From Candidatus Kerfeldbacteria bacterium CG_4_10_14_0_8_um_filter_42_10 (GTDB lineage: Bacteria; Patescibacteriota; Patescibacteriia; UM-FILTER-42-10), in the NCBI GenBank assembly GCA_002784945.1, contig PFMD01000021.1, forward strand, positions 1 to 34,108: a stretch of DNA of 34,108 nt, given 5' to 3'. How positions within the stretch are numbered: the stretch's first letter is position 1; each line of letters starts with the position of its first letter. The position numbers and the translations under genes are program-made. Under the pieces are notes generated by a model that was given only the letters and a program-made list of their open reading frames with translations, did no database searches and was not told where the DNA came from. Below, piece after piece: positions 27,547 to 33,535 of the stretch.

Positions 27547-27609
27547 ATGAACAGAAACGTTAGAAACATAGCAGCAATAATTATTATTAACACCAGACAC
27601 TCTGGCTAG
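27547..27609 (+). CDS. Leader peptide 1 with an Ile codon run
   Basis: This 20-codon frame encodes MNRNVRNIAAIIIINTRHSG. It has ATA earlier and then the run ATA ATT ATT ATT. It starts just after a predicted transcription start, and its TAG stop lies inside the 5' strand of an antiterminator helix. This is the layout of ribosome-mediated attenuators, in which stalling at codons for a scarce amino acid changes RNA folding. It is too short for the ORF track. Homology cannot be tested at this length; the case rests on the codon run and the alternative folds. Confidence 0.7.
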   Translation: MNRNVRNIAAIIIINTRHSG

Positions 27610-27659
27610 TTTTACGATAGAATAATATATAGGAAAACTGGCCGGATAAGCCAGTTTTT
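27605..27659 (+). promoter_or_regulatory. Attenuator 1: mutually exclusive antiterminator and terminator
   Basis: AAAACTGGC (27634-27642) can pair either with GCTAGTTTT (27605-27613, which contains the leader stop TAG) or with GCCAGTTTT (27650-27658, followed by T), the second being a terminator with a CGGATAA loop. A ribosome ending at the stop codon would block the first pairing and favour termination. A ribosome stalled on the Ile run would leave it free and allow read-through. An extra CCAG/CTGG pairing lies within the last leader codons. Confidence 0.7.
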
Positions 27660-27669
27660 AAGTATCAAA

Positions 27670-27723
27670 ATGAACAATCAATCCAAATCAAGCCTAATTA
27701 TTATTATCACCTTTTTCAGATGA
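27670..27723 (+). CDS. Leader peptide 2 with an Ile codon run
   Basis: This 17-codon frame encodes MNNQSKSSLIIIITFFR, with ATT ATT ATT ATC in a row and a TGA stop. It starts 11 nt after terminator 1, so its transcript depends on read-through or a weak local promoter. It resembles leader 1 in length and in having four consecutive Ile codons, but its sequence is not a copy. Confidence 0.7.
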   Translation: MNNQSKSSLIIIITFFR

Positions 27724-27790
27724 GAGGCTTGGTATAGTGAAAAAATAATAATAGAAACGCTTAAGCCGGTCTCTCTCAAGAGCCGGTTTT
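27690..27790 (+). promoter_or_regulatory. Attenuator 2: four-segment fold of trp-operon type
   Basis: Segment 1, AAGCCT (27690-27695), lies in the leader codons just before the Ile run. Segment 2, AGGCTT (27725-27730), follows the stop. Segment 3, AAGCCGG (27763-27769), and segment 4, CCGGTTT (27783-27789), form the terminator stem, extended by CTCT/AGAG. Segments 1:2, 2:3 (GGCTT/AAGCC) and 3:4 are each complementary, giving the classic choice between antitermination and termination. The T-tract is short (TTTT), so termination may be partial. Confidence 0.65.
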
Positions 27791-27856
27791 AAAATATAAA
27801 AATAACCAGAAGGATAAATACCATAACGCATCGTACATTTTTAAAGGAGGAGTGCC

Positions 27857-28051
27857 GTGGAAAAGAAACAAGCAAATTTCACCCCTGCTCGGCAGTTCAG
27901 CGGCAAAACGCTAGAAACCGCCATCCAAGCTTTAAACAAGGCTTTAACAGAAGGCGAATTAAGCGATTTGCCGTCCCACATCACCATAACGGTCCAGGGG
28001 AATCAGCTTAGCGAAGAGACCAGACGGCGTTGGGCCAGTATGCCCGTATAG
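27857..28051 (+). CDS. Small hypothetical protein (64 aa) under the Ile attenuators
   Basis: A GTG start is set by the very strong Shine-Dalgarno AAAGGAGG, 6 nt upstream. The protein has an N-terminal polar stretch, a predicted helix GKTLETAIQALNKALTEGEL, a strand-like HITITVQGNQL, and SEETRRRWASM at the end. It has no Cys, TM segment or signal peptide and matches no family I recognise. It is followed by its own terminator. The two Ile-codon attenuators upstream imply that it is made when charged tRNA-Ile is scarce. It could be a small regulator or inhibitor, but there is no evidence for a specific activity. Confidence 0.75.
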   Translation: MEKKQANFTPARQFSGKTLETAIQALNKALTEGELSDLPSHITITVQGNQLSEETRRRWASMPV

Positions 28052-28120: not shown

Positions 28121-28152
28121 GGGTAGCGGGAACGACGTCGTTCCCGCTACCC
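28121..28152. repeat. Perfect 32-nt palindrome
   Basis: GGGTAGCGGGAACGAC is followed directly by its exact reverse complement, GTCGTTCCCGCTACCC. It is GC-rich in an AT-rich gap, lies between the terminator of the 64-aa gene and the promoter of the T-box leader, and is probably another dispersed REP-like palindrome. Confidence 0.8.
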
Positions 28153-28196: not shown

Positions 28197-28546
28197 AATT
28201 CATTGATAATTACAAAACTTTCAATTTAGGTCCCTTTTTCCATAAGAAAAAGGGTTGGGCCTGAGTTTTCGAACAAAGTACAATTTGTTTCGAGAAGTGA
28301 TCTCTGCGTTAGTGGAGATCCGGCTTCCTCCGTAATCATAGGATAACTGATGTCGCCCGAATGAGCTTGTCTCAGAAAGGAACAGAGTCAGTAAAAGTGG
28401 TTTTTTAGAATCCGTTTTACTGGCGGATTTTTTTAATTCGCCAGCTGGATTTATAAAACAACAAAGGTGGTACCACGGGCTGTCTTGAATTCAAGACCTC
28501 TCGTCCTTCTGTCCAATTTTTTGGATTTTGGGATGAGGGGTTTTTT
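28197..28546 (+). ncRNA. T-box leader (tRNA-sensing riboswitch)
   Basis: AAAGGTGGTACCACGG (28463-28478) is the T-box sequence. AAGG-(TGGTACC)-ACG pairs with CGT-CCTT (28501-28508) across GTCTTGAATTCAAGAC to give the canonical antiterminator with its seven-nt bulge. The competing terminator is CTCGTCC (28500-28506) with GGGATGAG (28530-28537) and TTTTTT. The bulge base U in TGGT fits tRNAs with A73. A likely stem III is CAGTAAAA/TTTTACTG (28390-28427). A loose stem I can be closed by CTGAG (28261-28265) and CTCAG (28372-28376), which would place AUG, followed by A, at the specifier position, but this is uncertain. The leader should permit transcription of the next gene when the sensed tRNA is uncharged. 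Confidence 0.88.
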
Positions 28547-28575
28547 GTTCTTTAAAATCAAGAAAGAAGGGAAAA

Positions 28576-31194
28576 ATGAAAGGATCTGCAGCTAAAAATC
28601 GGATAGTCAGTTTTACTAGTCTGACAGCAGAACAACTCGCTGTACTACCCGGTAAAATTACGCGACTTTACCACAACTGGCGTCAGGGATTGCCTGTGCC
28701 GTCTCGTGGCTTTGTCGTCTTTCAGGCAGTTGTTAAGGACATCGTTGAATCGTTGCACGAAGGCAATCGGTTGCCCGGCTACACCCGTAGAGAATTGCTA
28801 TCAGCCTATCGCCGAGGCGGTTTTGAACACGACGGAATGCGGGTGGCAGTCCGCGGCGCACTGTCGGTTGAGGACCAAGCCAATGCTTCCTGGGCCGGAG
28901 GTTCAGAGAGCCCGACGAACGTTCTTGGTAAGAAAGCATTCCTGGAGGCAATAGTCACCTGTATTACCGAAACATTCAACGGCAAAATGGATGGTTACCG
29001 TATCCGAATGGGGATTGAAGGTGAACTGAAACTTTCAATCTTGGTGCATCAGATGGCAGTTTGCGATCGGTTTGCCGTGGTGTTTACGCGTAACCCGATG
29101 AACGGTTCACCGGATGAAATTGTCATTCAGTCAACTTTCGGAGGCGGGCAGTTATTAACCGCTGGCAGAGAAACTGGTGACATTTTCATTCTTGACCGCA
29201 ACGGTAGGATATTGTCTGAAACCATCACCACTAAGGCGTTGATGGTAACCGACGAAAAAGTAGTGCCGATGCCTTCCCAATTGAAGGATAAAAGATCGCT
29301 TGAACCGAGCCAGCTGTTGAACCTGGTTAAATTCGTTCTCACAATTGAAGCAATTGAAAACGGCGTTCCTCAAGATTGTGAGATCGCTCTGGCAGTAGAC
29401 AACAGTGGGAGGATGGATAAATCACTCGTGCAAAATCGGCCAATTACTGCTGTTGGCGATTCTCCCGGATTGATTCGTTATCAAGCGATTAAATCAGCCA
29501 AAGCGGCGGTGGCCGCAGAGCGTTCGCGTTTGGAGAATCTTGGCGTTACAGTTCCGATTGACGTGCTTAGCGATCAGAATGTCGCAGAACTGCTCACTCA
29601 ACACCCTACCCCATTCAGTTTCGGGTTGTTTACCTACATCTTTGCGCATGGCGACGGAGCGATCCGCACCGGTCGCAACTTGATGGGGTACTCCATCGGA
29701 GAAGAGTTGGACGCTGGTTTTTTTGAATTAATTGGCTCACAACCGCGTTGCAGCATTTTCCATGACGCTCTAACCTACCGAATCTCAGGCATCTCACCGA
29801 TTGATTACCTTCAAGGAATGGTGCGTTCTTACTTTGATGCAATTCAAGCTGATGAACGGTTCGCCAATTACCCTGAGGTTAGTCTCTACGACCAGAATCC
29901 GAGCTTGGAGCGTCTCACGGAACTATACGGACGGGAAAAGGCCGAGGTTTACAAGCAGTGTTATGATCGGTTCTTTACCGGCATTCGTCAGTGGGAACGG
30001 ACATTTGCCGACGCTTATTTAAGCGTTCATGAGCCGATTGTCGCTGAGTTTGTTAATCAACAGCGCCGATTCGCTCAACTTCCGTTGTCGTCTGAACTGA
30101 TTGAATCACTTCAGGAAAAGTTCGACTTCCTGCGCACAAAAGTCTGTGTTTGGTTCGTCATCGTGGCACGGCTCGGCTTTTTTGCCTACGCTCGTCTGCG
30201 TAAAACGTTAGAGACACACTTTAATGGAGCCGGAGGTCAGCAACTGCTCGATTATCTTACCAGCGGCCTGCAAAACGATCCGACGATCGAGTTCAACGTT
30301 CGCTTGGATCAACTAAACAACGGAACAGTCACTCAAGCTTCTGTTTTGGCGGAGTTTGGACATCTAGGGTTCAACGAATTGGAAATCTCCGGACCGCGGT
30401 ATCACGAACATCCCGAGATGATGGATCAACTCGCTATTGGGATTAAAGGTGATCCTAAGGCTGAACTTCAGCGTCGGCTTCAGGAATACCGAACGGCGCA
30501 GCAATATGTCAGCGCCGGTTTAACCGGAGACAAACGGAAAGAATTCGAGCGGGACGTTGATTCGGCTCGGACGTATCTGGCACTCCGCGAGCGAGTCAAG
30601 TTTAATTATCTCAGGGTTTATGACTTGGTTCGTAGCCAGCTACTTTCCGTTGAAGCGCAGTTGAAGTGGCCGCCCGGCCACATCTTCTTCCTTGATCCCA
30701 GGGAAATCAGGATGTTGATTGATGCGCCGAACGATGCGCTTAAGCTCGCCATCCAACGAAAAGAACGCCATGATCAAGAGTTCAAGATGGAAGTGCCGCA
30801 GGTCATGTTTGTCGATCAGTTGAGTAAAATCGGCTTGGTTGATACCCCGAAAGGTGCTAGCGAGTTGCTAGGCATCGGCGTAACGTCGTTTGTCGCGGAG
30901 GGTCCGGCGGTTGTTATTCTTGACCCGAATGATCATCATGCCCTAGAACTGATGAGTGACGGTTGTGTACTGGTAGCACACACTACTGACCCGACCTGGG
31001 CGCCAATCATCGGTGCAGTCGGTAATGGCGGTTTAGTCACTGAGGTAGGCGGTCCGCTTGCTCACGGAGCGATTACCGCCCGGGAACTTGGGATTGCAGC
31101 TGTTCTTAATGTCAAACACGCTACTAAAGTCATCAAGACTGGCCAGCGGGTGCGCGTTGATGGTCCTGCCGGCAAGATCTACATTCTTGACTAG
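28576..31194 (+). CDS. Rifampicin-phosphotransferase-like PEP-utilising enzyme
   Basis: The 872-aa protein has three parts in the order of rifampicin phosphotransferase (RPH). An ATP-grasp PPDK_N-like domain (about 20-300) has Lys27 in PGKIT, LPVPSRGFVVF, VRGALSVEDQANASWAGG, FTRNPMNGSPDEIVIQSTFGG and QNRPIT (286-291). A long helical middle domain (about 330-750) has no family I recognise. A C-terminal swivelling His domain has His830 in GGPLAHGAITARELGIAAVL. PEP synthase and PPDK carry a TIM barrel after the His domain; this protein lacks it. It therefore probably transfers phosphate from ATP via His to an unknown acceptor. VRGALS replaces the usual VRSSA. Its base composition appears clearly richer in G+C than its neighbours, suggesting transfer. 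A T-box leader controls it; GAAAGAAGGG is the ribosome site. Confidence 0.88.
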   Translation: MKGSAAKNRIVSFTSLTAEQLAVLPGKITRLYHNWRQGLPVPSRGFVVFQAVVKDIVESLHEGNRLPGYTRRELLSAYRRGGFEHDGMRVAVRGALSVEDQANASWAGGSESPTNVLGKKAFLEAIVTCITETFNGKMDGYRIRMGIEGELKLSILVHQMAVCDRFAVVFTRNPMNGSPDEIVIQSTFGGGQLLTAGRETGDIFILDRNGRILSETITTKALMVTDEKVVPMPSQLKDKRSLEPSQLLNLVKFVLTIEAIENGVPQDCEIALAVDNSGRMDKSLVQNRPITAVGDSPGLIRYQAIKSAKAAVAAERSRLENLGVTVPIDVLSDQNVAELLTQHPTPFSFGLFTYIFAHGDGAIRTGRNLMGYSIGEELDAGFFELIGSQPRCSIFHDALTYRISGISPIDYLQGMVRSYFDAIQADERFANYPEVSLYDQNPSLERLTELYGREKAEVYKQCYDRFFTGIRQWERTFADAYLSVHEPIVAEFVNQQRRFAQLPLSSELIESLQEKFDFLRTKVCVWFVIVARLGFFAYARLRKTLETHFNGAGGQQLLDYLTSGLQNDPTIEFNVRLDQLNNGTVTQASVLAEFGHLGFNELEISGPRYHEHPEMMDQLAIGIKGDPKAELQRRLQEYRTAQQYVSAGLTGDKRKEFERDVDSARTYLALRERVKFNYLRVYDLVRSQLLSVEAQLKWPPGHIFFLDPREIRMLIDAPNDALKLAIQRKERHDQEFKMEVPQVMFVDQLSKIGLVDTPKGASELLGIGVTSFVAEGPAVVILDPNDHHALELMSDGCVLVAHTTDPTWAPIIGAVGNGGLVTEVGGPLAHGAITARELGIAAVLNVKHATKVIKTGQRVRVDGPAGKIYILD

Positions 31195-32007: not shown

Positions 32008-32036
32008 TTGACAGCTTTACCGCGGTTTGCTATTAT
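32008..32036 (+). promoter_or_regulatory. Promoter TTGACA-N17-TATTAT of the Phe-leader unit
   Basis: A consensus -35 has ideal spacing to TATTAT. The predicted +1 is near 32043, about 16 nt before the leader ATG. Confidence 0.75.
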
Positions 32037-32058
32037 TTTTCTAACATCGAAAATCACC

Positions 32059-32148
32059 ATGATTATCAGAGAAACCACAATTCAGAAATTATTAAATAAT
32101 CAAATCCAATTTTTTGGTTTCTTTTTTAAGCTGTCGCCCGGTGATTAG
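32059..32148 (+). CDS. Leader peptide with Phe codon cluster
   Basis: This 29-codon frame encodes MIIRETTIQKLLNNQIQFFG followed by FFFKLSPGD and a TAG stop. Five of six codons at positions 18-23 are Phe, as in the pheA and pheST leader peptides of enteric bacteria. The stop codon lies inside the 5' arm of an antiterminator, and a terminator follows. It is not in the ORF track because of its length. It lies in a 410-nt gap (31957-32366) that otherwise holds the promoter, the attenuator and the ribosome site of the next gene. Confidence 0.78.
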   Translation: MIIRETTIQKLLNNQIQFFGFFFKLSPGD

Positions 32149-32198
32149 TTAATTTTAATTTAAATCATTTTAACTAGCCACCGGACGGTGGCTTTTTT
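32138..32198 (+). promoter_or_regulatory. Phe attenuator: antiterminator versus terminator
   Basis: CCGGTG-AT-TAGTTAA (32138-32152) is complementary to TTAACTA-GC-CACCGG (32170-32184), a 13-bp antiterminator containing the leader stop codon. Its 3' arm also pairs as GCCACC-GGAC-GGTGGC followed by TTTTTT (32177-32198), a strong terminator. A ribosome reaching the stop would block the antiterminator and stop transcription. A ribosome stalled on the Phe cluster, which ends 10 nt before the antiterminator, would allow read-through to the 95-aa gene. Confidence 0.8.
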
Positions 32199-32366
32199 GA
32201 TTATCGTCGAGCTAAACTCGATCGCCACTCTCAGTTCGCTATTCGTATATCGCAAATTAAATCTCGCTATTTTAAATATTTGTCCCGAGATAGTCGGTCC
32301 TAAATTATTAGGAATGAAAATTTCTGGACAAAGAAAAGAATTAGTTTCAATAGGAGGTGAAAAATC

Positions 32367-32654
32367 ATGCCAGAAAAATTACCTGACTGCTCCTGCGGTG
32401 AGTCGATAACCATTGTCTGGGAAGAAGTGACCCATTACGATCAGCCATTCAGTGGCTTATCTAATACAGTCTCGCATGGTTTTCGGGGCTGTTGCGGAAA
32501 TGGTTGTAAATCCGTGTCAATCGCTCAACAACACTTCCCACTCCCAGAAAGTGTAACAGTGGTAGCTCAACGGCCGGCCAGGATAGCAGTTGGATCATTT
32601 CCTCCGCCTGAATTCAGTGGAGATAATCCGGACTGGTATCTATGGATACCGTAA
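32367..32654 (+). CDS. Small Cys-containing hypothetical protein (95 aa) under the Phe attenuator
   Basis: The ATG follows the strong Shine-Dalgarno ATAGGAGGTGA by 7-8 nt, so the gene is very likely real. It has five cysteines in two groups, CSC (residues 8-10) and CCGNGC (42-47), which could bind a metal ion. Conserved-looking polar and Trp residues follow (DNPDWYLWIP at the end). There is no TM segment or signal peptide, and I recognise no family. The 168 nt between the attenuator and this gene hold small hairpins (TCGAG-CTAAA-CTCGA) but no other frame of note. It has its own promoter, attenuator and terminator and would be induced when charged tRNA-Phe is scarce. Confidence 0.78.
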   Translation: MPEKLPDCSCGESITIVWEEVTHYDQPFSGLSNTVSHGFRGCCGNGCKSVSIAQQHFPLPESVTVVAQRPARIAVGSFPPPEFSGDNPDWYLWIP

Positions 32655-32671: not shown

Positions 32672-32702
32672 CCGCTAAACCTCTGTGTTTAGCGGTTTTT
32701 TT
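32672..32702 (+). terminator. Terminator after the 95-aa gene
   Basis: CCGCTAAAC-CTCTGT-GTTTAGCGG is followed by TTTTTTT: a perfect 9-bp stem with a long T-tract. Confidence 0.92.
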
Positions 32703-32748
32703 ATCCGTATTCATTGTCAGATAAATAGGTATGGAATATACTTAAAAT

Positions 32749-32891
32749 GCTCTACTTTTCAAGAACCAGTTAATCCAGTTCGACAGGATTATTATATTGG
32801 GAGCTCAATATCTTCTTAGCCTGCGGGCTAAGATTGCGAGCACCCACTTTTCCATAAGGAGCTAGGGCGATTACTGGTTTGAAAGTAGAGC
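32749..32891 (+). ncRNA. Unidentified structured RNA/DNA element upstream of the STAS-like gene
   Basis: An outer stem joins GCTCTACTTTTCAAGAACCA and following bases (32749-32775) to GATTACTGGTTTGAAAGTAG and following bases (32869-32891), with three single-base bulges all on the left strand. Inside, GGG-A-GCTC (32799-32806) pairs with GAGC-A-CCC (32838-32845), enclosing the perfect hairpin CTTAGCC-TGCG-GGCTAAG. The rest could form a further arm. It matches no riboswitch class I recognise. It may be a cis-regulatory leader, a stand-alone RNA or a MITE-like hairpin. Confidence 0.55.
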
Positions 32892-32911
32892 TCCTATTTT
32901 TGTTCTGTTTT

Positions 32912-33319
32912 ATGAAATCAGAAGAAGAGATTCGAAAAACCTTCAAGCTGTTTTTAGATGAAAACGGGATACTTAATTTAAGTATCTTTAATGAATCTTC
33001 TGATAAAGAAGAAACTATTCTTGCAGCGCAGTTAATAAAGAATGAAGTGGAAAATATTTTAAATCAGAGCACTCCTAAATCTACAAACATCTTACTTGAC
33101 TTAACGCCCTTGAAAATAGTCAAGGTCCCGCCTTCGGCAAAAGCAAGAGAAATTTACATTAAATTATCCTCAGACGCTAGAATTAATAAGATCGCTATTA
33201 TTGGTGCTAGTTACTTTCACGTTTCCATAGCGAAGAGTATATTTACTATAGCAAGAAAGAAGAAAGTGAATGCTTTTAGCGATCGAAAAGAAGCAAGCGA
33301 TTGGTTAAGAGAAGAATAA
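32912..33319 (+). CDS. SpoIIAA/STAS-like domain protein
   Basis: The track starts at a TTG (32879) inside the structured element; the ATG at 32912 (MKSEEEIRKTFKLF) is a better start, giving 135 aa. The C-terminal half fits the SpoIIAA-like/STAS fold: NILLDLTPLKIVKVPPSAKAREIY as strand and helix, KIAIIGASYFHVSIAKSIF, and an ending VNAFSDRKEASDWLREE very like the FxDxxEAxxWL end of that family. Such domains bind lipids or anti-sigma-type partners; a specific role is unknown. It is followed by a terminator (33334-33362). The structured element upstream may control it. Confidence 0.75.
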   Translation: MKSEEEIRKTFKLFLDENGILNLSIFNESSDKEETILAAQLIKNEVENILNQSTPKSTNILLDLTPLKIVKVPPSAKAREIYIKLSSDARINKIAIIGASYFHVSIAKSIFTIARKKKVNAFSDRKEASDWLREE

Positions 33320-33333
33320 TTGAGTTTAAAAAA

Positions 33334-33362
33334 GTAAGCCGACAAGATTCGCCGGCTTTTAC
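33334..33362 (+). terminator. Terminator after the STAS-like gene
   Basis: GTAAGCCG...CGGCTTTTAC forms a stem with a TTTT tract partly within the 3' arm; moderate strength. Confidence 0.6.
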
Positions 33363-33422
33363 TGTACCATTCTAAAATTATAAGGCTGTTCCTAAAATTA
33401 ATTTGGTTATATCCTTTTTTAT

Positions 33423-33451
33423 TTGTATATATTTTAGTTTTACTATATATT
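33423..33451 (+). promoter_or_regulatory. Promoter TTGTAT-N17-TATATT of tRNA-Pro
   Basis: The hexamers are spaced by 17 nt. The predicted +1 (about 33458) is within 1-2 nt of the mature tRNA 5' end, so the primary transcript may need little or no 5' trimming. Confidence 0.55.
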
Positions 33452-33459
33452 ATGAGCGT

Positions 33460-33535
33460 CGGGGTGTGGCCTAGCGGCTAAGGCGCATGCATGGGGTGCA
33501 TGAGATCGGAGGTTCAAATCCTCTCACCCCGACCA
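33460..33535 (+). tRNA. tRNA-Pro (anticodon GGG)
   Basis: The 76-nt cloverleaf is complete with genomically encoded CCA. The acceptor CGGGGTG pairs with CACCCCG, then A73 and CCA. The D-stem is GCCT/AGGC. The anticodon stem is CATGC/GCATG with loop ATGGGGT, so the anticodon is GGG (33493-33495). The variable loop is AGATC. The T-stem is GGAGG/CCTCT with loop TTCAAAT. C1-G72 is typical of bacterial tRNA-Pro. It would read CCC and CCU. Confidence 0.97.

Follow-up and report, generated by a model that had tools for sequence, protein, structure and literature searches.

In enteric bacteria, the pheA leader (pheL) and the pheST leader (pheM) each contain a short open reading frame with a run of phenylalanine codons, followed by an antiterminator and a terminator that exclude each other. 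The stop codon is placed such that a ribosome finishing the peptide blocks strand 2 of the antiterminator. Regulatory codons and alternative hairpins are also the elements of the trp, his, ilv and leu leader attenuators (Actinobacteria survey, PMC1262725). The T-box riboswitch (RF00230) is likewise an amino-acid-responsive antitermination device, which senses the tRNA directly and does without a leader peptide. Here, we analysed a locus on the plus strand of contig PFMD01000021.1 from Candidatus Kerfeldbacteria bacterium CG_4_10_14_0_8_um_filter_42_10, of which 34,108 nucleotides (positions 1 to 34,108, termed the window) were studied. Like pheL and pheM, it has a short Phe-run ORF, two alternative hairpins and a stop codon within strand 2. 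The locus is probably a ribosome-mediated transcription attenuator that senses charged tRNA-Phe (or slow translation).

The first-pass annotation had pointed to a leader peptide with the motif FFGFFF ahead of an unknown 95-aa gene, and this description was confirmed. The leader ORF (32059-32148, MIIRETTIQKLLNNQIQFFGFFFKLSPGD) has 29 codons from the ATG at 32059 to the TAG at 32146-32148, includes five Phe codons at 32110-32127 and precedes an orphan gene on its 3' side. When the leader and the spacer were shuffled with their dinucleotides preserved, any short ORF with at least five of six identical residues was obtained in 16 of 5000 shuffles (0.3%). No Shine-Dalgarno sequence precedes the leader ORF, which is also the case for most of the 32 window genes checked, and the ORF is presumably translated. 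A promoter-like site, TTGACA-17-TATTAT with a TG before the -10 (extended -10), is located at 32008-32036. It matches the consensus at 11 of 12 positions, and its 3' end lies 22 nt ahead of the leader ATG. The promoter scan of the plus strand found no other site ahead of the 95-aa gene. A different arrangement would be that the hairpin behind the leader only insulates the histidine phosphatase gene upstream from the 95-aa gene, which would be served by an unrecognised promoter in 32200-32360. This would suit the 168 nt between the T-tract and the gene, and promoters of the lineage may deviate from the consensus. However, the near-perfect promoter between the phosphatase gene and the hairpin would then transcribe the leader only, and we regard an insulator as very unlikely.

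Strand 2 of the antiterminator (32138-32152) has the TAG stop codon inside it and pairs with strand 3 (32170-32184) over 14 bp. Six pairs are formed between 32138-32143 and 32179-32184 and eight between 32145-32152 and 32170-32177, with one A.C mismatch between the two blocks. Thirteen are Watson-Crick pairs, the number given in the first-pass annotation for an antiterminator over the stop codon, and one is a U-G pair. The terminator had been described as sharing an arm with the antiterminator, which proved correct. Strand 3 also forms a perfect 7-bp hairpin with a 4-nt loop (32176-32182/32187-32193, -11.8 kcal/mol), with CCACC common to both structures, followed by TTTTTT (intrinsic terminator 32176-32198, hairpin 32176-32193, T-tract 32193-32198). 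None of 5000 dinucleotide shuffles of the leader and spacer matched the observed 2:3 pairing strength, and the fold of the leader region exceeded the stability of the shuffles by 4.7 s.d.

In the naked RNA, the minimum free energy (MFE) structure was one 23-bp hairpin with two A.C mismatches that ends at the U-tract (-25.3 kcal/mol), because strand 4 (32186-32194) has a second possible partner in the segment AAGCUGUCG at 32128-32136, with which it can close a long hairpin on the U-tract. The MFE fold also contains a 5' hairpin at 32068-32125 (32068-32077 with 32116-32125), possibly a pause hairpin, in which the Phe codons make up the 3' arm. A single long hairpin is what a plain small RNA or short transcript with one 23-bp terminator would show, the Phe ORF then being a by-product of the U-rich arm 32116-32125. 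Such an origin would agree with Phe being encoded by U-rich tracts, with the run forming the 3' arm of a 10-bp hairpin and with the lack of a Shine-Dalgarno sequence. Yet a second perfect 7-bp hairpin within the 3' arm would be superfluous in a plain terminator, the residue run is as rare in shuffles as stated above, and the position of the stop codon in strand 2 is shared with 12 other leaders described below. We therefore consider a mere terminated transcript quite unlikely.

Since the RNA alone forms one long hairpin, the switch depends on the position of the ribosome. Folding was computed for different ribosome positions by masking bases up to about 13 nt downstream of the first A-site nucleotide, an assumed footprint length that follows general knowledge of the ribosome. 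When the ribosome was placed at the stop codon, the terminator formed with P=1.0. Stalls at Phe1 to Phe3 gave the antiterminator with P above 0.95. At Phe1 and Phe2, the full long hairpin stayed closed on the U-tract, at Phe3 (antiterminator P 0.99) its base extension was largely lost, at Phe4 the structures were mixed and at Phe5 the terminator was already freed. The earlier statement that the geometry fits attenuation exactly goes too far, since an antiterminated state was obtained for stalls at Phe3-Phe4 only. The long hairpin of the naked RNA and of the Phe1-Phe2 stalls might terminate by itself. According to these models, the classical logic would hold for only part of the Phe run if the long hairpin is itself able to terminate, and this is the main mechanical doubt.

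In the attenuation reading, transcription would start near 32043. A ribosome that is not delayed in the Phe run would reach the stop codon and cover strand 2. Strand 3 would therefore pair with strand 4 and the RNA polymerase would stop at 32193-32198. A ribosome stalled in the Phe run would cover 32128-32136 and leave strand 2 free, so that 2:3 would pair, strand 4 would remain unpaired and transcription would continue into the 95-aa gene. Phenylalanine would be the signal in this scheme, and low phenylalanine or impaired translation would switch on the small 95-aa protein.

The presumed target gene (32367-32654, plus strand) encodes a Cys-containing orphan protein and is followed by a terminator at 32672-32702 (plus strand). 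Its Shine-Dalgarno sequence ranks first among the 32 window genes checked, and the two top values (-11.7 and -14.5 kcal/mol) belong to a nearby 64-aa orphan and to this one. No relatives of the gene were found in 57 related genomes, 380 genomes of the phylum, GTDB contigs and phages, and the protein had no match in PDB, Pfam, PHROGs, NCBIfam or PADLOC. One viral match (L023) and one match within the phylum (L127) were off-frame and due to chance. The single-sequence AlphaFold model had a pLDDT of 46 and was unusable. Searches with the leader DNA gave AT-rich chance matches only, and the exact stem pattern of the leader was absent from viral contigs. The absence of an orthologous leader, the confinement to one island in one genome and a 95-aa target with no known link to phenylalanine count against the attenuator.

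The Phe leader is part of a region that begins at the end of ndk (27509), extends to about 32700 and is missing as a whole in a genome of the same genus (G001). There, ndk directly precedes a conserved stretch that corresponds to 32710-33464 of the window. The leader therefore lies in a lineage-specific island, or the island was lost from G001. The order in the island is tandem Ile leaders, the 64-aa orphan, a T-box, an enzyme similar to PEP synthase and rifamycin phosphotransferase, the histidine phosphatase, the Phe leader and the 95-aa orphan. Leader A (27547-27664, plus strand) has the Ile run MNRNVRNIAAIIIINTRHSG and a textbook set of a protector (1:2, CCAGA/UCUGG), an antiterminator over the stop codon (2:3, UCUGGCUAGUUUU with AAAACUGGCCGGA) and a terminator (3:4). 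Leader B (27670-27800, plus strand) follows in tandem with the Ile run MNNQSKSSLIIIITFFR, an antiterminator over the stop codon and a terminator. The geometry of both is the same as that of the Phe leader, and neither has a Shine-Dalgarno sequence. The 64-aa orphan gene on their 3' side (27857-28051, plus strand) has a strong one. The T-box leader (28261-28548, plus strand, AAAGGTGGTACCACG) was matched by RF00230 with 38 bits and an E-value of 1.2e-6, under the gathering score of 93, and lies upstream of the enzyme gene (28576-31194). The 872-aa enzyme matched, among others, models of rifamycin phosphotransferase and PEP synthase, all far below the cut-off.

Two other elements were observed in this region. 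A perfect 14-bp inverted repeat, GGGTAGCGGGAACGACGTCGTTCCCGCTACCC (28121-28152), lies downstream of the 64-aa gene and ahead of the T-box promoter. At 32745-32896, a long rod-like RNA (-55 kcal/mol) with the promoter TTGTCA-17-TATACT is partly conserved in G001 and resembles 6S RNA, without an Rfam match.

About 0.99 Mb of the 1.36-Mb genome was covered by a relaxed scan, which required a residue run in a short ORF, a terminator, and an antiterminator close to the stop codon. It yielded 11 candidates, compared with 2.5 in each shuffled set, and the two Ile leaders and the Phe leader of the island are among the 11. A stricter scan of 1.01 Mb, 16 kb of it from G001, gave 6 candidates versus 1.2 in the shuffled control. 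The other candidates (L050, L061, L073, L081, L095, L103, L105, L107 and L122) were rejected as chance-like, as a Lys-rich small protein or for an unconvincing context.

The enzyme and the phosphatase recur together in loci of Kerfeldbacteria and Falkowbacteria with a T-box consensus ahead; Magasanikbacteria loci with this pair have leader peptides in place of the T-box. The order of T-box, enzyme and phosphatase was the same in L132 and L134. We take the compared Kerfeldbacteria and Magasanikbacteria genomes to be Patescibacteria (CPR) of class ABY1, and 58 of 144 class genomes had T-box matches. Most loci outside the window came from a search with a covariance model built on a downstream RNA, which used no peptide information. 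A leader ORF and a terminator lie ahead of this RNA in 11 of 12 loci, and L188 has neither. The leaders are rich in different residues: Trp in L136 and L185 (L137 and L184 have one Trp each), Leu in L159/L191, Ile in L186, Val-Ile-Leu in L192, Tyr in L187, L189 and L190, and Leu/Ile in L199. The L136 leader reads MKKLTQKINSMSWWAKLFLV and lies 3' of a TrpR-family gene (PF01371, E 1.7e-22). L137 and L185 are also located behind TrpR-family genes by their sequence, and L184 was judged from the gene end only. Homologous targets with a changed leader peptide keep the residue, which is Trp in L136/L137 and in L184/L185 and Tyr in L187/L189. The genes of L187 (1068-1445, minus strand) and L189 (1110-1457, minus strand) encode homologous small zinc-ribbon-like proteins from two genomes that share QHPFVRDS and CRREDS, and the Tyr-containing leaders ahead of them differ in sequence.

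Together with the three leaders of the window there are 14 leaders from several genomes. All but one of them (13 of 14, L199 being the exception) have a strand 2 that overlaps the stop codon, and the distance from the stop to the terminator is 20-43 nt. The pairing test for strand 2 gave a combined P of 4e-21 for the 14 leaders and a Fisher P of about 4e-16 for the eleven outside the window, 10 of which overlap the stop; L199 and L185 were weak individually (P 0.10 each). In some loci the residue runs had been picked out visually. The pairing test takes no account of the peptide and is for this reason the stronger evidence. The comparison of architecture, rather than of orthologues of the 95-aa gene, supports the ribosome-mediated attenuation that the first-pass annotation had proposed. 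It is the best reading of the locus, and the attenuation is very probably genuine.

The residues kept among these relatives also bear on the signal. The leader could sense impaired translation in general, by an antibiotic or a slow ribosome, the Phe run merely setting the site of slowing. Leaders of this kind exist, since an E. coli uORF senses several classes of ribosome-targeting antibiotics (PMC12121999), and a general sensor would be in keeping with the sub-threshold rifamycin phosphotransferase matches of the neighbouring enzyme and with a target that is no amino-acid gene. However, a run of five Phe exceeds what general sensing needs, the neighbouring Ile runs and the T-box point to amino acids, and the relatives elsewhere keep Trp or Tyr. 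General sensing is therefore unlikely in our view, and sensing of charged tRNA-Phe is preferred.

Between the attenuator terminator and the gene, the outside loci contain a conserved RNA (L136:3362-3462, L137:3031-3128, L184-L192 and L199:329-431). It has the nested helices GGAAG/CTTCC and GAAGATCTTTC/GAAAGATCTTC, with covariation. The apical loop is complementary to an upstream segment that differs by locus (AAATATCCC/GGGATATTT, AAATAGGTCAGT/ACTGACCTATTT and CAAATTGAGCAA/TTGCTCAATTTG), and therefore a pseudoknot is likely from the sequences. This RNA looks new, and no Rfam family reached the gathering score in L136. The window does not contain it, and searches of the genome did not find it either.

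The first-pass annotation had called leader-peptide attenuation little documented in CPR bacteria. This fits our literature search, in which neither leader-peptide attenuation nor a T-box was found together with Patescibacteria, Parcubacteria or Candidate Phyla Radiation in open-licence PMC papers; given this scope, absence is not proven. A 2024 review describes the phylum as lacking amino-acid synthesis pathways and mentions neither attenuation nor leaders (PMC11665869). At least 11 further leader switches of the same build occur in the class, for which the literature searched had yielded none. It is an evenly balanced proposition that Patescibacteria, without most amino-acid biosynthesis, carry a starvation regulon of attenuators and T-boxes over fast-evolving small, often Cys-containing proteins and a few enzymes, that Magasanikbacteria and some others couple the attenuator to the new pseudoknotted RNA, and that the Phe leader is one branch of it. 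If true, classical attenuation extends to a phylum that depends on others for its amino acids, and orphan proteins that are switched on by starvation become accessible from sequence. A reporter in E. coli would make the mechanism accessible even though the organism itself is not grown.

The Rfam Phe_leader model (RF01859) scored the leader with 22.9 bits (E 0.34), under its gathering score of 55, and RF00230 had no match in 32043-32366. Unlike the trp, his, ilv and leu attenuators, which also differ in phylum, the leaders described here precede small orphan or zinc-ribbon, haem-oxygenase-like and PEP-synthase-like targets and not biosynthetic operons. Taken together, the mechanism is classical attenuation, for Patescibacteria not found in the literature searched. 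It is closest to pheL and pheM and differs from them in that no gene for Phe biosynthesis or tRNA charging lies behind the leader, that the leader has no Shine-Dalgarno sequence and that its long hairpin can also close on the U-tract.
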